This document shows, piece by piece, positions 1 to 22,040 of a stretch of DNA of 25,151 bases. Numbering within the stretch: the first letter of the stretch is position 1; each line of letters opens with the position of its first letter. The DNA lies in the IMG/VR virus record IMGVR_UViG_3300021375_000150, positions 1 to 25,151 of that record. One strand, given 5' to 3'. The DNA is from a virus. The notes beneath the pieces were generated by a model. That model was not told the DNA's origin. It ran no database searches and saw only the letters and a list, made by a program, of their open reading frames with translations. A program made the position numbers and the translations under genes.

Positions 1-68
1 AGAACATGCCCAAGGGCCTGATGGACCTTACCAAACTTTACTTTGCCTCTGAACTGGAGAACCTATGA
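1..68 (+). CDS. C-terminal end of a gene cut by the window edge; possible PolA 3'-5' exonuclease fragment
   Basis: Only the last 21 residues are visible (frame beginning at base 3, TGA at 66-68). They end in KGLMDLTKLYFASELENL. This resembles the 'gLKdLakkYlg.eL' stretch that follows the ExoII motif in family-A polymerase exonuclease domains. The next polymerase fragment, starting at 256, resumes just before the ExoIII motif, so this gene would hold ExoI and ExoII. The stop overlaps the ATG of the next gene (ATGA). The assignment rests on a short match plus position and is an inference; the upstream sequence would decide it. Confidence 0.45.
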   Translation, partial: NMPKGLMDLTKLYFASELENL

Positions 69-256
69 CACTAGAAGAAATGAAGGCTGAATTTGAAGAA
101 GCCGAGGCTGATTACATTAGGCTTAAAGAGGAGCACGCTGAAGCGCATTTGAATTTCGCAAGGATTGATTTCGAGCATCGTAAAGCCATGAAGCGTTACT
201 TCTCTGCTCGATATAACTATGACAAGGCCAAAGACGGCATCTTCCTGGATATCTAA
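65..256 (+). CDS. Small charged coiled-coil protein (63 aa), unknown function
   Basis: 63 residues rich in Glu, Lys, Arg, Ala and Tyr, with a heptad-like helical pattern over most of its length (MTLEEMKAEFEEAEADY onward). It has no Cys pair, signal peptide or membrane segment. GGAG about 6 bases upstream supports the ATG at 65. It overlaps the preceding stop (ATGA) and ends in TAATG, which overlaps the start of the next gene, so its translation is probably coupled to both. It lies between two apparent pieces of one exonuclease domain. A role as a clamp joining the pieces or as a small morphon inserted at the break is possible, but nothing in the sequence shows it. I do not recognise the family. 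Confidence 0.7.
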   Translation: MTLEEMKAEFEEAEADYIRLKEEHAEAHLNFARIDFEHRKAMKRYFSARYNYDKAKDGIFLDI

Positions 257-732
257 TGCTTACTATTGATAATCCGTCCAGATTTGACTGGGCTAACATG
301 GACCTAGGTGAGTGCATGGAGGGTAACGCTATGGACACCCACTTCACACTCAAGCTATTCGACCTGATCGTAGACCGTTTGGAAGACAATACGATGAATC
401 TCCTGAAGCACGTTGTGATGCCCAGCCTATCCAACTTCGCAGAGATGGAGTGGGAGGGTCTGATTGTTGATCAAGACGCCTTGGATAGAGTAGGTCACCA
501 GCTATCGTCCAAGAACATGGACAGAGAAGATGGTCTGTACACTTGCAAGGGGGTTACTACAAAAGATAACGTATCTTCTAACGCAGATCTGTGCGAGATT
601 CTGTATACTAGAGAGGGTGGCATGGAGCTTTACCCCCCTGACAGGACACCTAAGGGGGCACCTTCTGTCTCCGCACCTACACTTAAACTACTACTGGAAC
701 ACATTGACGAGGAGCTAGAGCGCCGTGGCTAA
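256..732 (+). CDS. DNA polymerase A fragment: end of exonuclease domain (ExoIII) plus start of polymerase/thumb region
   Basis: 158 residues. N24-x-x-D27 with T31 (in GNAMDTHFTLKLFDLI) fits the ExoIII motif of family-A polymerases. Residues 56-72 (PSLSNFAEMEWEGLIVD) are the conserved linker helix after the exonuclease domain. NVSSNADLCEILY (105-117) and TPKGAPSVSAPTLKLLL (131-147) are the thumb-entry motifs seen in Pol I as 'n.sS..qL..iLf' and 'TptGapSv...tL..L'. Fingers and palm are absent; they are in the next gene, in the +1 frame. ATG 256 overlaps the preceding TAA (TAATG) and no good ribosome binding site is visible, which suggests coupling. The fragment cannot be a polymerase or a full exonuclease alone and presumably assembles with its neighbours. 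A sequencing indel near 725-732 would also explain the break to the next gene. Confidence 0.85.
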   Translation: MLTIDNPSRFDWANMDLGECMEGNAMDTHFTLKLFDLIVDRLEDNTMNLLKHVVMPSLSNFAEMEWEGLIVDQDALDRVGHQLSSKNMDREDGLYTCKGVTTKDNVSSNADLCEILYTREGGMELYPPDRTPKGAPSVSAPTLKLLLEHIDEELERRG

Positions 733-1810
733 TTGGAAGCACAGAGATGAGGGGAAGCGTATCAGTAAGTCTGTTGTCGCCAGCAAGAGCACCGAGGAGT
801 TGCTTGAGTCTAAGAAGTTTATCAAGGGCTTGCTTGACCTTCGCAAGTCTCAGAAGCTGACTAAGACTTATATTGATGGTACGAAGAAAGCCATCGAGTA
901 TAACGAGCAGAGCAAGGTTTTCGTGGACTTCCGGTTTGATGGCACGGCTACTGGCCGTCTGTCTTGTGCCTCCTACAACGCGCAGAAACCGATGGGTGTA
1001 TCGTTCCACACTCTACCTAGAGAGACCGAGGATAACATCAGAGACCTGTTCTGTGCTCCTCCTGGCTGGGACTTCCTTGCCGCTGACTATGCTGCGATGG
1101 AGCTACGGGTCTTGGCCCATATCTCCAAAGAGTTCGTCATGCAGAAGGCATTCAAGTCTGGTGCGGACCTGCACACTTACACGGCTAGGCTCCTGTTCCA
1201 GAAGGAGAACATTAGTAAGGAAGAGCGTCAGATTGCCAAGACTGTATCCTTCCTCATTGTTTATGGAGGAGGTGCTTTCAACTTGAGTGAGACGATGGGT
1301 ATTCCCATGAAGCGTGCTGAGAAGATCATCGCGGACTACCAGAACGTCTACCCAGGTATCTTCAAGTACATGGACTTTGTTAACGAGTACGTTCTAGCAA
1401 ACCAAGAAGCGTACACTATCTTTGGCAGGACTCGCAAGCTACCTAATGTGACGAGCCGTGATCGTGGTGTGGTTAACCGTGCTCTTAGACAAGGACTTAA
1501 CTTCACCATTCAGTCTACAGCCTCTGACATTCTTTTGTGTGCTCTACTAGGCATCAGCCGTAGGTTTAAGAGGGAGAACATGGAGGCTCGACCTGTAGCT
1601 ACGGTCCACGACTCGATTGAAGTAGTTTGTCCCAAGAATGAGAGCAAGAGAGCTATTGAAATCATCTATGATGAGATGGTAAACTACCCTACGCTCAAGA
1701 AAGTATTCGATATCGAATTTGACGTTCCCTTCGGTATTGATGTTGAGCTTGGCACTTCGTTTGGGGACGGTAAGGAAGTACATTTTGAGGGGGGAGTCCC
1801 CGTTCTATGA
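725..1810 (+). CDS. polA: DNA polymerase A catalytic fragment (thumb, fingers and palm)
   Basis: 361 residues holding the complete family-A catalytic core. TATGRLS is at 74-80. Motif A (AADYAAMELR) has D121. Motif B, the O-helix, has R168, K172, F176 and Y180 in the canonical R-x3-K-x3-F-x3-YG spacing. Motif C is VHDS with D296; the usual HDE glutamate is replaced by Ser. Phe at the position of E. coli F762 is the common bacterial state. Start: GTG 725, with GAGGAG at 709-714 upstream; the frame is +1 relative to the preceding fragment, whose TAA is at 730-732. The final codons overlap thyX (ATGA). The protein lacks its own exonuclease and first thumb helices, so it should need the upstream fragment. 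This is the replicative polymerase of the phage. Confidence 0.95.
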   Translation: MANWKHRDEGKRISKSVVASKSTEELLESKKFIKGLLDLRKSQKLTKTYIDGTKKAIEYNEQSKVFVDFRFDGTATGRLSCASYNAQKPMGVSFHTLPRETEDNIRDLFCAPPGWDFLAADYAAMELRVLAHISKEFVMQKAFKSGADLHTYTARLLFQKENISKEERQIAKTVSFLIVYGGGAFNLSETMGIPMKRAEKIIADYQNVYPGIFKYMDFVNEYVLANQEAYTIFGRTRKLPNVTSRDRGVVNRALRQGLNFTIQSTASDILLCALLGISRRFKRENMEARPVATVHDSIEVVCPKNESKRAIEIIYDEMVNYPTLKKVFDIEFDVPFGIDVELGTSFGDGKEVHFEGGVPVL

Positions 1811-11384: not shown

Positions 11385-11416
11385 AGGAAGGCACTGACGG
11401 GGTGCCTTCCTTTTTT
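11385..11416 (+). terminator. Strong rho-independent terminator
   Basis: A perfect 10-base-pair stem (AGGAAGGCAC at 11385-11394 with GTGCCTTCCT at 11402-11411) with a 7-base loop runs into a T tract to 11416. It closes the replication operon just before the sugar cassette. The next ATG is only 4 bases beyond the T tract. Confidence 0.92.
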
Positions 11417-11419
11417 ACT

Positions 11420-12595
11420 ATGACTGAACAAAAGAAATTAAAGATCCTTTGCGTACCTGCCAATGAAGGCGGGTGTTCTTACTATAGAATTATTTGTCCT
11501 ATGAAAAAGCTAGAAGAGCTTTATGGGGATGAAGTAGAAATTCGATGGGACAAGAACCCTTTAGGTCTTGACGAAAAGACTGGTAAGTGGCAGGAGAACT
11601 GGGAGTTTGAGAACATGAAGTGGGCCGATATTGTGTTCACTCAGAACCTGTCCAATTTTGGTGGACCCTATACAGCAAGAATTGTAGGCAAGGCTAAGGA
11701 ACATGGATGCTTTGTTCACTATGATACTGACGATCTATTGACCAACATTTATGAAGGTCATCGTCTCTACGACGTATACAAGGAAAAAGGCTTAGAGGAG
11801 ATCGCGGGGTTCATTTACAGCCACGCTGATTTGGTAACCGTTACGCAGAGAAAGTTTGCGGAGCGAGTTAAGCCTTACATAGGGAAAGGGAACGCTTTAG
11901 CTATAGTTAAAAATACTATTGACTACAATCTCCCTTGTTGGAATCTTCCAAAGACTAAGATGAGGAAGAAAAACTACGTTCGCTTTGGTTGGGTTGGAGG
12001 CATCCATCATGAGCAGGATCTTAGGTATTTCTCAGGTGTCCCTCATCTTGTAAACCAGCGCGTAGGTAGAGAGAATTGTCAGTGGGACTTCTATGGACAC
12101 CCGCCCCCTGGGAACACGGATTGGCAGACAGATGTTTGGAAGAGCTACCAAGCAATTATTTTAAGAGGGTTCAAGGGTGGGAAGAATTGGAATATTCATT
12201 ACGCCATGCAAGCTGATCGCTATGGACAATTTTATTCTAATATGGATGTTGCTCTTGCTCCTCTAGAAATGAACGATTTCAACGACAGCAAGTCTGAGAT
12301 CAAAGTAGCTGAGTGTGGGAGATACAAAATCCCTTTGGTTGCCAGCAATGTGGGTTGTTATGACGAATGGATTAAGGATGGTGAAACAGGATTCTTGATT
12401 GATCATAAGAAGGGGATATCTGAGTGGGTAAGGATCCTTACTCTTTGCGCTAAAAGGCCAGATATGATTGCGCGTATGGGAGAGAACCTGCATCAACTTA
12501 CAGAAGAAAACTTTGATATGAACAAAAAGGCTAAAGAGCGTGTAAGTCTTTATAGAGAAGTGCTTAGGGATAAAAATGAAACAGCCAAAGTTTAG
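11420..12595 (+). CDS. GT-B fold glycosyltransferase (GT4-like)
   Basis: 391 residues from ATG 11420; the in-frame GTG at 11402 lies inside the terminator stem and is rejected. The N-terminal Rossmann half begins KLKILCVPANEGGCSYYRI and the second half begins at about residue 190 (VRFGWVGG). The GT4-type donor-site region is EIKVAECGRYKIPLVASNVGCYDEWIKDGETGFLI (key residues E, G, P, G and E), followed by helices. It would transfer a sugar from a nucleotide-activated donor. No ribosome binding site is visible before the ATG. It opens a six-gene glycan cassette. The acceptor is unknown. Confidence 0.85.
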   Translation: MTEQKKLKILCVPANEGGCSYYRIICPMKKLEELYGDEVEIRWDKNPLGLDEKTGKWQENWEFENMKWADIVFTQNLSNFGGPYTARIVGKAKEHGCFVHYDTDDLLTNIYEGHRLYDVYKEKGLEEIAGFIYSHADLVTVTQRKFAERVKPYIGKGNALAIVKNTIDYNLPCWNLPKTKMRKKNYVRFGWVGGIHHEQDLRYFSGVPHLVNQRVGRENCQWDFYGHPPPGNTDWQTDVWKSYQAIILRGFKGGKNWNIHYAMQADRYGQFYSNMDVALAPLEMNDFNDSKSEIKVAECGRYKIPLVASNVGCYDEWIKDGETGFLIDHKKGISEWVRILTLCAKRPDMIARMGENLHQLTEENFDMNKKAKERVSLYREVLRDKNETAKV

Positions 12596-13202
12596 TATAA
12601 TTGTACCTCACTATGACGGTGTGATCTCAGACGAGATGTTCATCGAGGGGATGGATTCTATATTAAAATCGACATATAAGAACTTTGAGGTTCTGTTGTA
12701 TCACGATGGGCCAGTGAGCAGACCTCTTCCGAAGAGCTTTTACTCAACCTATGATAAGCATAACATAGATTATACGTTTAAAGCTACAAAGAAAAGGTAC
12801 AATGATTGGGGCCACAGCCTAAGAGATTTGGGTATACGAGAAGCTAAAGGAGAGTACATCATACACTTTAACCCAGACAACCTGTTACATCGAGATGTGC
12901 TGCAAGGCATATCAGAGCTTGAAGATGATATTATTATTTGTCCTATTTTATTAGAGGGCACGGTAAGGAAATCGACAGGAATGTACAGGACCAAAAACCC
13001 CAACGACTATGTTCTTATGGACGGGTTTCCTGCGGTGCATCAAAACATTGATGCAATGCAATTAGTCATGAAAACAGAACTTTGGAGAAAGTTTGGGGGT
13101 TGGTACGATAAGAGCGAGCAGTCTGACGGTATAATGTATCAGGAATTTTGTAGGAAAGTTCCGGCTAGATACTCACACCATATTATTGGAGTACATAGAT
13201 GA
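12576..13202 (+). CDS. GT-A fold glycosyltransferase (GT2-like), short form
   Basis: 208 residues. KFSIIVPHYDG opens the nucleotide-binding fold. GEYIIHFNPDNLLHRDVL holds N-P-D-N in place of the classical DxD metal motif. C-terminal features (FGGWY) match GT2 enzymes. It lacks membrane helices, so it is a soluble cytoplasmic enzyme, slightly shorter than typical GT2 domains. Its start overlaps the previous gene by 20 bases and its stop overlaps the next start (ATGA). Confidence 0.82.
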   Translation: MKQPKFSIIVPHYDGVISDEMFIEGMDSILKSTYKNFEVLLYHDGPVSRPLPKSFYSTYDKHNIDYTFKATKKRYNDWGHSLRDLGIREAKGEYIIHFNPDNLLHRDVLQGISELEDDIIICPILLEGTVRKSTGMYRTKNPNDYVLMDGFPAVHQNIDAMQLVMKTELWRKFGGWYDKSEQSDGIMYQEFCRKVPARYSHHIIGVHR

Positions 13203-13936
13203 AAAAAAATACTAAATTTGCTGTGGTAATGAGCACATATGTTAGGCATGATGGGAAAACAGAGGAGCACTTAACTAAGGCTTTAGATAGTTTACTAGAG
13301 CAGTCGCACGAAGACTGGAAGATTTTTCTTACAGGGGATAAATTTGAGGACGAAGAGCTATTTGATAAGATGGTTTCTAAAATCCCAAAGAGTAAAATTA
13401 AAGCCGTAAACAGACCCTTTGCACCAGAAAGAGACAAGTACCCTGCAAAAAGCCATAAGTTATGGTGTTCTGGTGGTTTGTCTGGAACTAACTTTGCTAT
13501 TGAGTCCGCATTAAAAGAAGGATTTGAATATGTTTGCTTCTTAGATCACGATGATTATTGGCACAAAGAACATTTGTCCTTTTTTAATGACATACTAGGT
13601 TCTTTTGATGATTTGGTAGTCTTAGCTTCTAGATCTGTTTTTGGAGGTAGAGACTTTTTTCTTCCCAGGTTCCAAAAAGTAGGTTACGGGTATATCCCCG
13701 CTCCCCAAAATGTTATAAAAGCGTCTACATGTATTAGGTGGAACTCTATAAAAACTAGAATGAGAGATGTTTTTGAAGAGACTGGAGTAGAAAAGCCTTC
13801 AGACATGGATTTTTGGGAGCGTCTGTCTGAAGAGATGAGGGAAAATGACTATAAAGGATATCTACATCCATATGTAACTTGTTATCATTTGGATGAGCAG
13901 TCCGTAATGAGAGGAAATAATGATAAAGCAAACTAA
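13199..13936 (+). CDS. GT-A fold glycosyltransferase (GT2-like)
   Basis: 245 residues. KFAVVMSTYVRHDGK and the helix TKALDSLLEQSHEDWKIFL open the nucleotide-binding domain. FLDHDDYWHKEHL is a clear D-x-D-D metal/donor motif, and DFWERLSEE lies in the acceptor half. Like its neighbour it has no membrane segment. Base composition is noticeably A+T-rich compared with the replication genes. The start overlaps the previous stop (ATGA) and the end overlaps the methyltransferase start by 17 bases. Confidence 0.85.
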   Translation: MKKNTKFAVVMSTYVRHDGKTEEHLTKALDSLLEQSHEDWKIFLTGDKFEDEELFDKMVSKIPKSKIKAVNRPFAPERDKYPAKSHKLWCSGGLSGTNFAIESALKEGFEYVCFLDHDDYWHKEHLSFFNDILGSFDDLVVLASRSVFGGRDFFLPRFQKVGYGYIPAPQNVIKASTCIRWNSIKTRMRDVFEETGVEKPSDMDFWERLSEEMRENDYKGYLHPYVTCYHLDEQSVMRGNNDKAN

Positions 13937-14555
13937 AAAAAATCTAGAGGAATTAAAAAGTATAAGAAAAACAATTGATGGTTTTCATCAACATGTATCT
14001 ATACTGAAAGATATTTCTGATTCTTTAGATCAAGAAAAAATTGTTTATGTGGAGATTGGATGTTTTGCTGGAGCTACGGCGGCACTGATGCTAGCAGACA
14101 ATAGGACCGAAGTTATATCTGTAGATTTAGGGTTACCTATCACGCCTGAAGTTGTAAAAGGAAATATAAAAGATGTTCGTGAATCATTAGACAGATTTGA
14201 GTATATTGAGGGAGACTCTCGATCAGAGGAAACGGTACAGAAGTTACAGGAGTCCTTAGGAGAGCAACAAATAGATATATTGTTTATTGATGGGGATCAT
14301 TCTGAGCAAGGAGTGAAAGACGATTTTTATAATTACAGCCCATTTGTAAAAAAAGGAGGCTTTGTAGTATTCGATGATTATCTAGATGCAGAGCATTCTC
14401 CGCAAGTTTTCCCGGCGGTTAATTCAATACTTTTGGATTTAAGTGGGTACGAAAAGATAGGAACCCCAGAAAATACCTATGGTGCGCTCCCCTCACAAGA
14501 AAAAATAAAAAGATTTTCTAAGCTAAACGATTTTATTATAAGAAAACATGTCTAA
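13920..14555 (+). CDS. Class I SAM-dependent methyltransferase (Methyltransf_24 type)
   Basis: 211 residues. Motif I is YVEIGCFAGATAALM (about 43-57), the acidic ribose-binding Asp is in VISVDLG, and the diagnostic IDILFIDGDHSEQGVKDD is followed by KKGGFVVFDDY. These are hallmarks of the methyltransferase-24/cephalosporin-hydroxylase-like group often found in sugar clusters. It probably methylates a sugar or a sugar-linked substrate made by the cassette. AGAGGA upstream supports ATG 13920. This gene is among the most A+T-rich in the window. Confidence 0.85.
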   Translation: MIKQTKKNLEELKSIRKTIDGFHQHVSILKDISDSLDQEKIVYVEIGCFAGATAALMLADNRTEVISVDLGLPITPEVVKGNIKDVRESLDRFEYIEGDSRSEETVQKLQESLGEQQIDILFIDGDHSEQGVKDDFYNYSPFVKKGGFVVFDDYLDAEHSPQVFPAVNSILLDLSGYEKIGTPENTYGALPSQEKIKRFSKLNDFIIRKHV

Positions 14556-15177
14556 CGGAGTATACAAAGTAACTGAAGATTTTGAAAGAGAACTGTGTAG
14601 GTACACAGGAGCTTCTTACGCAGTAACCGTAGATAATGCAAGCAATGCTTTGTTTTTATGCTTGATGTACGAGGATGTTAAAGGTAAGGTTATAAACCTA
14701 CCAAGCAGAACCTACCCGTCAGTGCCGTGTGAAGTTATTCACGCGGGAGCTAAGGTAAACTGGGTTCCCGTTGAAGGTGAGACCATAACGGGTGCTTATA
14801 ATCTTGCCCCAACTAATATTTGGGACTCAGCTTTAAGATTTACCGGGGACATGTATATTTCAGGCAGTCATATGTGCTTATCCTTTACTGGGCCGTACAA
14901 ACATTTTAAACTAAGTAAGGGTGGAGCAATACTGACAGATGATTACCAAGCATACTTATGGTTTAAAAGAGCCAGATACTCAGGGCGAAGAGAGTGCTCC
15001 TACCATGATGATAATTTAGATATGCTAGGATGGAACTTCTATATGATGCCAGAGTTAGCAGCTAGGGGGTTGTTATTAATGAATCAGTTTTACAATTTAG
15101 ATGGCTCAAAAAAGAAAAACGACGACCTTACCATACCATACCCAGACCTATCAAAATACGAGGTGTATACTCAATGA
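14548..15177 (+). CDS. Half-length DegT/DnrJ/EryC1-type sugar aminotransferase
   Basis: 209 residues against about 370-400 for the family. It keeps the large PLP-binding domain. GASYAVTVDNASNALFLCL (21-39) is the phosphate-binding region, D93 in NIWDSALRF fits the Asp that contacts the pyridine nitrogen, and K118 in LSFTGPYKHFKLSKGGAIL fits the Schiff-base lysine. GWNFYMMPELAARGLL matches 'GyNyRmselqAAlG'. The C-terminal small domain is missing, and no remainder is visible because the acetyltransferase starts in an ATGA overlap. It may be a compact enzyme or a non-catalytic relative. In the full-length family the reaction is PLP transamination of a keto-sugar nucleotide. Confidence 0.78.
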   Translation: MSNGVYKVTEDFERELCRYTGASYAVTVDNASNALFLCLMYEDVKGKVINLPSRTYPSVPCEVIHAGAKVNWVPVEGETITGAYNLAPTNIWDSALRFTGDMYISGSHMCLSFTGPYKHFKLSKGGAILTDDYQAYLWFKRARYSGRRECSYHDDNLDMLGWNFYMMPELAARGLLLMNQFYNLDGSKKKNDDLTIPYPDLSKYEVYTQ

Positions 15178-15749
15178 AAAAAGCAATTTTTGGCTTCGGG
15201 GGATTTGCCCGTGAGGTATTATCGTACCTAGAGGAGCCCGTTGAAATTTTTGTAGATGATGCTTACTGTGAAAAAGAGGCAGAACCTATATCTTCTTTCG
15301 ACCCACAGCAATACCAACTACTTATCTGCGTAGGTGATCCCGCACTCAGAAAGCAAATTGTGAGCGGCTTGCCTAAGGAAACTAAGTTCTTTTCATTTGT
15401 TCATCCCACCGCTGTCGTCGGGAAAGATGTGGAAATTGGGGAAGGAAGCATTATCTGTCCTCAGGCGGTAGTTACTACAAATGTCACACTAGGGAAACAC
15501 AATATTTTAAATTTATGCAGCACGGTCGGGCATGATTCCATTATAGATGATTATTATACATCTTCTCCTGGAGGCAAGTGCTCTGGCTCCGTCTCATTGG
15601 GAGAAAAAGTTTACTTAGGAACAAACGCTTCCATTCGAGAAGGGATTCGAGTTTGCGGAGATGTTACTATAGGCATGAACGCAGCCGTGGTAAAAAATAT
15701 TTATGACGCTGGGGTTTATGCTGGAGTTCCGGCTAAGAAAATAAAGTAA
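15174..15749 (+). CDS. NeuD-like sugar O/N-acetyltransferase (left-handed beta-helix)
   Basis: 191 residues. KKAIFGFGGFAREVLSYL is the N-terminal nucleotide-sugar-binding Rossmann half of NeuD/PglD-type enzymes. From about residue 80, hexapeptide repeats follow (VVGKDVEIGEGSIICPQAVV, then TVGHDSIIDDYYTSSPGGK, then IGMNAAVVKNI). H in TVGHD is the usual catalytic base. It ends YAGVPAKKIK, the standard closing of this family. With an aminotransferase directly upstream (ATGA overlap), acetylation of an amino-sugar nucleotide is the natural guess. It is the last gene of the sugar cassette. Confidence 0.88.
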   Translation: MKKAIFGFGGFAREVLSYLEEPVEIFVDDAYCEKEAEPISSFDPQQYQLLICVGDPALRKQIVSGLPKETKFFSFVHPTAVVGKDVEIGEGSIICPQAVVTTNVTLGKHNILNLCSTVGHDSIIDDYYTSSPGGKCSGSVSLGEKVYLGTNASIREGIRVCGDVTIGMNAAVVKNIYDAGVYAGVPAKKIK

Positions 15750-21326: not shown

Positions 21327-21402
21327 CCTCCTGTAGCTCAGTGGTTAGAGCAATGTTCTTATAAAGCATAGGTCGTGGTTTCGATTACCACCAGGAGGAC
21401 CA
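21327..21402 (+). tRNA. tRNA-Ile (anticodon UAU)
   Basis: 76-nt cloverleaf with an encoded CCA. Acceptor CCTCCTG/CAGGAGG, D stem GCTC/GAGC, anticodon stem ATGTT/AGCAT with loop CTTATAA, T arm GTGGT-TTCGATT-ACCAC. The anticodon TAT reads AUA. Bacteria normally read AUA with a lysidine-modified CAU tRNA, so a UAU tRNA is an alternative brought by the phage. Confidence 0.9.
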
Positions 21403-21403
21403 A

Positions 21404-21488
21404 GCGAGTGTGGTGGAATTGGTATACACATCAGACTTAAAATCTGACGCCTTATGGATTGCGGGTTCGAGTCCCGCCACTCGTACCA
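21404..21488 (+). tRNA. tRNA-Leu (anticodon UAA)
   Basis: 85-nt class II tRNA with a long variable arm and encoded CCA. Acceptor GCGAGTG/CACTCGT (one G-T), anticodon stem TCAGA/TCTGA with loop CTTAAAA, T arm GCGGG-TTCGAGT-CCCGC. It starts one base after the CCA of the previous tRNA, so processing must separate them. It reads UUA. Confidence 0.93.
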
Positions 21489-21494
21489 TACAAC

Positions 21495-21603
21495 GGGGAA
21501 GCAATGGTATTGACAAGTTGAGTAGCGAAAGCAAGACGATTATCGCCCAAGTGTAAAGTCTCGCTCTTCTTGGACGAGGGTTCGACTCCCTCCTTCTCCA
21601 CCA
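21495..21603 (+). ncRNA. Miniature tmRNA-like gene (109 nt) with alanine-type acceptor
   Basis: The ends form a tmRNA-type tRNA-like domain: acceptor GGGGAAG (21495-21501) with CTTCTCC (21593-21599), including a G3-U70 wobble and discriminator A, the alanine identity elements, then CCA. The T arm is GAGGG-TTCGACT-CCCTC. There is no D stem and no anticodon arm. The 5' part (GCAATGGTATTGACAAGTTG) resembles one-piece cyanobacterial tmRNA, and TTGGACGAGGGTTCGA before the T loop matches the usual tmRNA 3' end. CAAG/CTTG (21514-21517/21569-21572) and GCGA/TCGC (21525-21528/21561-21564) form a P2-like helix. Normal tmRNAs are 300-400 nt; the pseudoknots and a recognisable tag are missing. A 10-codon frame from 21524 ends TAA 21554-21556 but lacks a degron-like Ala-Ala end. 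Confidence 0.72.
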
Positions 21604-21608
21604 TATAC

Positions 21609-21683
21609 GCCAGATTAGCTCAGTGGTAGAGCACTGCTTTTGTAAAGCAGCGGTCGTCGGTTCAAGTCCGACATCTGGCCCCA
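21609..21683 (+). tRNA. tRNA-Thr (anticodon UGU)
   Basis: 75-nt cloverleaf with encoded CCA. Acceptor GCCAGAT/ATCTGGC, anticodon stem CTGCT/AGCAG with loop TTTGTAA, T arm GTCGG-TTCAAGT-CCGAC. Reads ACA. The discriminator is C, unusual for bacterial tRNA-Thr (A in E. coli). Confidence 0.92.
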
Positions 21684-21693
21684 TTTACAATAC

Positions 21694-21769
21694 TCCCCAG
21701 TAACTCAGCGGTTAGAGTATTCGCCTGTTAAGCGAAGAGTCGTTTGTTCGAATCAAACCTGGGGAGCCA
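21694..21769 (+). tRNA. tRNA-Asn (anticodon GUU)
   Basis: 76-nt cloverleaf with encoded CCA and discriminator G. Acceptor TCCCCAG/CTGGGGA, anticodon stem TTCGC/GCGAA with loop CTGTTAA, T arm GTTTG-TTCGAAT-CAAAC. Reads AAC and AAU; the only tRNA of the set not aimed at an A-ending codon. Confidence 0.93.
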
Positions 21770-21782
21770 TACACATACTATT

Positions 21783-21875
21783 ATGCAAGTACAAGAAGAG
21801 AGTAACGGAGGCTGCTGGGCAGCCTTTTATATTGTCCTTTTAGTCCTTTTATGCTTCAAAGCATTTAGTAAGTAA
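21783..21875 (+). CDS. Possible single-span membrane microprotein (30 aa) inside the tRNA cluster
   Basis: A 30-codon frame from ATG 21783 to TAA 21875 encodes a polar N-terminus (MQVQEESNGG) and one hydrophobic segment (11-25, CWAAFYIVLLVLLCF) ending in Lys, a plausible inside-positive membrane helix. No ribosome binding site is visible. A terminator-like hairpin overlaps its codons 9-16, so this stretch may instead be only a processing or termination region. It fills the 112-base gap between tRNA-Asn and tRNA-Pro. Confidence 0.35.
   Translation: MQVQEESNGGCWAAFYIVLLVLLCFKAFSK
21809..21828 (+). terminator. Weak terminator-like hairpin between tRNA-Asn and tRNA-Pro
   Basis: AGGCTGC (21809-21815), loop TGG, GCAGCCT (21819-21825), with TTTT at 21825-21828 at the 3' side. 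The stem is perfect but the T run is short. If it works, it would reduce read-through into the Pro and Arg tRNAs. Confidence 0.45.
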
Positions 21876-21881
21876 CTATAA

Positions 21882-21958
21882 CGGGGTGTGGCGCAGCTTG
21901 GTAGCGCGTCCGCTTTGGGAGCGGAAGGCCGAAGGTTCGAATCCTTTCACCCCGACCA
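21882..21958 (+). tRNA. tRNA-Pro (anticodon UGG)
   Basis: 77-nt cloverleaf with encoded CCA. Acceptor CGGGGTG/CACCCCG, typical C1-G72 and A73 of tRNA-Pro, D arm GCGC/GCGC, anticodon stem TCCGC/GCGGA with loop TTTGGGA, T arm GAAGG-TTCGAAT-CCTTT (last pair G-T). Reads CCA. Confidence 0.93.
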
Positions 21959-21964
21959 TACACC

Positions 21965-22040
<76 letters not shown>

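Follow-up and report, generated by a model that had tools for sequence, protein, structure and literature searches.

A phage family A DNA polymerase encoded as three polypeptides with breaks inside the exonuclease and thumb domains, a predicted heterotrimer

The DNA analysed here (the window) is the whole of IMG/VR record IMGVR_UViG_3300021375_000150, a 25,151-bp fragment whose 5' end lies within a polymerase locus; the phage group that carries this locus has never been cultured. The plus strand opens with the tail of a gene that we call N (1..68), of which only the last 21 codons and the stop fall in the window (NMPKGLMDLTKLYFASELENL, stop TGA at 66-68), the remainder lying upstream. A coiled-coil-like ORF of 63 amino acids follows (65..256), then the mid gene of 158 aa (256..732) and the core gene of 361 aa (725..1810). 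All junctions are coupled: N overlaps the small ORF by ATGA, the small ORF meets mid at TAATG, the stop of mid and the start of core overlap by 8 nt (GTGGCTAA, 725..732), and core is joined to the next gene, ThyX, by ATGA. The overlap at 725-732 suggests translational coupling of mid and core. GAGGAG at 709..714 on the same strand, 10 nt before the GTG start at 725, is the likely ribosome-binding site of core, and AGGAG is retained in L006, L011 and other relatives that have the 8-nt overlap.

The core gene encodes the second half of the thumb, the palm and the fingers. It matched PF00476 (DNA_pol_A) with an E-value of 8e-78 and 262.5 bits against a cut-off of 34.3, and it carries motifs A (DYAAMELR), B (RQIAKTVSFLIVYG) and C (VHDS), which identify it as a family A DNA polymerase. 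Its profile also matched the polymerase domains of Bst and Klenow. The mid gene encodes the ExoIII half of the 3'-5' exonuclease and the first half of the thumb. The ORF, which is conserved in 79 distinct sequences, matched phrog_17 DNA polymerase (2.3e-6), and its profile matched Klenow residues 484-614 with an E-value of 1.9e-5 (chain index + 323). Predicted alone, mid gave a pLDDT of 67 and a pTM of 0.31, and a fold search with this model returned only weak, uninformative Pol I matches (E 1.3; Z 3.3). A poor fold in isolation is expected for a piece built of two half-domains; a shallow alignment may be another source of the poor prediction.

The first-pass annotation had proposed a polymerase in three polypeptides, with one break in the exonuclease domain resting on 21 residues. 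Scanning of viral contigs yielded near-identical and related loci. One of them, L018, has the very same mid piece as the window and supplied the whole N gene (340 aa, L018:3322-4341). The L018 protein ends in ENMPKGLMDLTKLYFASELENL, letter for letter the same as the first frame of the window, so that frame is the C-terminus of N and the exonuclease break no longer depends on a short peptide. The recovered sequence contains ExoI (DTETTG) and ExoII (FHNAKFD), preceded by a domain that resembles family 4 uracil-DNA glycosylase (UDG). In the AlphaFold model of L018 N (mean pLDDT 81), residues 15-190 resemble family 4 UDG 4zbx (Z 18.2, 3.0 Å, 168 aligned) and residues 193-340 resemble Klenow 324-472 in 1kln (Z 13.9, 2.6 Å, 141 aligned). 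Four Cys residues of the UDG part (20, 23, 87 and 103) are invariant. The catalytic motif of family 4 UDG is of the GEAPG type. No such motif was found in the UDG part of N, where the consensus at the catalytic-motif strand, read by eye, is DVLFLSDS. Since the four Cys are kept and the motif is not, the UDG part probably has a structural or DNA-binding role.

The breaks were placed in an alignment of the frames that included ten intact phage polymerases and three that are split. Break 1 falls at about Klenow residue 472, in the loop that leads from the helix following ExoII to that of ExoIII. Break 2 falls within the thumb at about Klenow 614-620, where a short linker in the intact enzymes corresponds to about 35 extra residues in the present split enzymes. 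With the breaks inside the exonuclease and the thumb, the 158-aa mid provides half of each domain. The thumb break proposed earlier, between 256-732 and a core with its own GAGGAG and GTG start, is real and lies where it had been put: the same 8-nt overlap occurs in the independent contigs L002, L003, L004, L005, L010 and L018, so the junction at 725-732 is not a read error. Among 79 distinct loci the overlap between mid and core is 8 nt in 55, 4 nt in 17 and 23 nt in 3; an overlap of 1 nt also occurs, and in L093 a whole gene intervenes.

The junction of N and mid is more varied. An unrelated gene between the exonuclease pieces had been described, and the window does have one; it is not an integral part of the arrangement, since its kind varies and 32 of the 79 distinct mid loci have no such gene, the N stop and mid start overlapping as TAATG. 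In the remaining distinct loci with N present, the spacing ranges from 151 to 2403 nt. The 63-aa ORF of the window, for which no family match rose above the cut-off, recurs in the close relatives L004-L006, L018, L021 and L048; elsewhere in the clade the slot is empty or filled by different genes, the contents being coiled-coil-like (as in the window), membrane-like, glycosyltransferase-like or antisense ORFs. In L093 a cargo gene sits at both junctions, and by eye each resembles a 2OG-Fe(II) oxygenase. Antisense genes part N from mid in many loci, which means that N does not share a transcript with mid and core in every case. Small Lys/Arg-rich antisense gene families occupy the gap in L116, L118, L120, L131, L153, L154 and L178. 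They share N-terminal leaders, such as M..YELIGESIWDTY..M.YLLAE and MNFKDKLIYILLEA, that resemble the T4 capsid-targeting leaders ending in LxE; judged by these leaders, they are perhaps packaged internal proteins inserted in the N-mid gap.

The distribution of the split was surveyed by profile scans with mid, core and N and by a frame census, with loci clustered at 95% nucleotide identity of core. N, mid and core occur in three frames and in that order in 80 species-level clusters. No cluster within the split clade has all three pieces in one frame, and one has mid fused to core. The same census found 21 clusters with a single-frame polymerase and was therefore able to detect fusions; all of these are at most about 34% identical to the N query and lie outside the clade, and no relative with an intact gene and an equal base count was found. 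In the tree the 81 split-clade clusters are monophyletic (SH-aLRT 100), with support of 100/100 in a smaller careful tree. In the near-exception, L240, a 1-nt difference puts mid and core in the same frame; this locus is nested among split relatives, is 97% identical to L238 and represents either a secondary fusion or a contig error. Among close relatives the dN/dS of N, mid and core each falls within 0.015-0.053, indicating strong purifying selection; in a more distant comparison, with L006, core gave 0.13 with dS saturating.

The catalytic residues were then compared across the pieces. The four metal-binding acids of the exonuclease (ExoI, ExoII and ExoIII) are conserved without exception in 65 sequences of N and 75 of mid, and the Asp residues of motifs A and C and the O-helix R, K, F and Y are invariant in 74 distinct core sequences. 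This invariance in an enzyme divided over three polypeptides supports a working three-part polymerase, and, together with the purifying selection and the 80 clusters, it bears out the earlier view that the polymerase is not in decay. The claim that all catalytic motifs are intact stands for the four acids and for motifs A, B and C and fails at one position. The mid of the window reads EGNAMD at the ExoIII site, with Gly in place of the Tyr at Klenow Y497, a Tyr present in Klenow and the aligned intact phage relatives. The Gly occurs in 75 of 75 scorable mids and in 104 of 104 of a wider set of split enzymes, even in L250 and L261, the split members that diverge most. The split enzymes have the four acids of a DEDDy proofreading exonuclease and lack its ExoIII Tyr, a loss that may leave their exonuclease weak or even inactive. 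In the Pol A of phage Tt72 the equivalent Tyr-to-Ala mutant, Y180A, retains 4% of exonuclease activity (PMC9324360), and according to a summary in PMC10133059 a Tyr-to-Phe change lowers exonuclease activity in the Klenow, T4, phi29 and herpes simplex enzymes. As Tyr mutants of these polymerases have lowered exonuclease activity, proofreading in the split enzymes is predicted to be weakened, altered or compensated; going by the residues at the site, it is probably weakened or altered.

Neighbours of the polymerase in the window include ThyX, SbcC/SbcD-like proteins, a ribonucleotide reductase, a DnaB-like helicase, a gp32-like SSB and a UvsX-like recombinase. A single Pol A locus is present in each of six long contigs, and no family B polymerase was found in three contigs of 111-131 kb; as the completeness of the contigs is uncertain, a further polymerase elsewhere is possible. 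One member of the clade, L179, is a 130.6-kb contig (QCKN01000003.1) in the Prochlorococcus single-cell assembly AG-409-P03, a public genome record. It carries a T4-like gp23 capsid gene about 30% identical to cyanomyovirus gp23. Infection, attachment and co-sorting all fit its presence there, and with no psbA found on this viral contig Prochlorococcus stays a putative, unproven host. The phage is best described as a distant relative of T4-like phages whose split polymerase is of the SPO1 type. Also in the window, an island at 11402-15749 adjoining the replication genes holds three glycosyltransferase-like genes, a methyltransferase, a short DegT-type aminotransferase match and a hexapeptide transferase. 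Inside a six-tRNA cluster (21327-22040), a 109-nt Rfam tmRNA match at 21495-21603 (58.9 bits, cut-off 47) is possibly a reduced phage tmRNA; ARAGORN found tRNAs and no tmRNA in this region.

What, then, do the three genes make? As a genetic arrangement the three-piece polymerase is very well supported by the frames, the breaks and the conservation across the clade, and its retention in at least 80 phage species suggests that the parts make up a functional enzyme and that the gene is not broken. We infer that the pieces assemble and are active. It is highly probable, in our judgement, that one gene cluster yields a translationally coupled, heterotrimeric replicative polymerase of the SPO1 type, with the UDG-like, 3'-5' exonuclease and polymerase parts made as three polypeptides. 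N and mid would jointly complete the exonuclease fold, mid and core would jointly complete the thumb, and mid would act as the clamp joining N and core. The overlapping stop and start codons of the window would couple translation, with the subunits being produced together. The split may have originated by a stop or frameshift with re-initiation that was later fixed.

A further possibility, which we regard as unlikely on the whole while taking it seriously, is that proofreading is a separable function of a heterotrimeric Pol A replicase, N docking on or leaving mid-core, and that, now that the ExoIII Tyr is gone, subunit exchange or a compensating residue sets the exonuclease activity in place of a fixed domain. 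More doubtful is the proposal that N has become independent, a UDG-like DNA binder or nuclease accessory, leaving mid and core as a two-part polymerase without proofreading. The Gly in every scorable split enzyme and the low activity of Tt72 Y180A would agree with it, as would the position of N, often separated from mid by other genes (antisense in some loci), in contrast to the almost constant overlap of mid with core. Against this, the ExoI and ExoII acids in N and the ExoIII Asp in mid are kept without exception, something difficult to account for if they do not share an active site, and neither N nor mid contains a complete exonuclease fold.

There is very little room for a reading in which the frames are joined after all into one chain by introns, split inteins or programmed frameshifting. 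Related polymerase genes, such as SPO1 gp31, can indeed contain introns, but the TAATG abutment of N and mid leaves no room for one, and elsewhere unrelated genes, some of them antisense, part the two. No intron family was found in the window, no intein domain in the pieces, and no intron RNA or homing endonuclease at the breaks, the cargo ORFs of relatives being read by eye alone; introns and inteins were rejected on the abutment, the antisense cargo and the absence of matches. The common 8-nt overlap would suit a frameshift between mid and core, and L240 indicates that a joined mid-core can exist; frameshifting was nevertheless rejected, since the overlaps vary (8, 4, 23 and 1 nt) and L093 has a whole gene separating mid from core. 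An intron, an intein, frameshifting or a sequencing error is thus either excluded or very unlikely. Gene decay or an assembly error, which a single metagenome fragment and breaks inside domains, typical of pseudogenes, might have suggested, can be set aside given the same breaks in clusters from many samples, the low dN/dS, the invariant catalytic residues and the identical junction in independent contigs.

Both in-domain cuts predate the divergence, to about 35% identity, of a clade of at least 80 species-level clusters. They go together with the loss of a residue that proofreading exonucleases otherwise conserve. A multi-part Pol A makes subunit assembly and fidelity directly testable, and the break positions point to natural split sites for engineered polymerases. 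Annotation and polA-marker surveys detect just part of such a three-piece enzyme.

The closest known enzymes are the SPO1 gp31-type polymerases, including those of Lysinibacillus phage LysYB1, Gordonia phage GiKK and Streptomyces phage KimJongPhill, which have the same domain order and folds. The N piece matches the N-termini of the SPO1 and LysYB1 enzymes, and core matches their polymerase domains. Whereas the SPO1-type enzymes are one polypeptide (with an intron in the SPO1 gene), have the ExoIII Tyr and have a short thumb linker, the split clade has the order UDG-like, exonuclease and polymerase across three genes in its 80 clusters, with the Gly and the extra thumb residues. The OM43 phages MEP401 and MEP402 have a two-part Pol A whose parts flank a small unknown ORF, an arrangement conserved in that phage group (PMC10580990). 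They resemble the present clade in having a small ORF within a split Pol A gene, but they have one break, and their first ORF carries the whole 3'-5' exonuclease and the N-terminal DNA_pol_A part (PMC10580990), whereas the two breaks here lie inside the exonuclease and the thumb. Vibrio phage D69 (also D181 and D148), whose split Pol A is known from the annotated record alone, is broken in the same exonuclease loop: a piece with the UDG-like domain and ExoI/ExoII is followed by an unrelated 182-aa ORF and a piece that begins from ExoIII. The common break position may reflect either kinship with the present clade or convergence. D69 differs in that the ExoIII Tyr is kept, the thumb is unbroken and the other break is at motif B. 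In D69 (L181, 779-4658) the order is the UDG-ExoI/II piece, the 182-aa ORF, the ExoIII-to-motif-B piece, small ORFs and a motif C piece. Bacillus phage BSP7 and Weizmannia phage Youna2 spread the UDG-like, exonuclease and Pol A parts over two annotated genes, with a single break near the O-helix (motif B). A link to the split polymerase of the Far-T4 phage RM378 was considered and rejected, its first 45 kb being unmatched by the N, mid and core profiles. No three-part family A phage polymerase was found in the open-licence literature searched. Two-part phage polymerases are known already; from these comparisons, the three-part arrangement appears to be what is new here.
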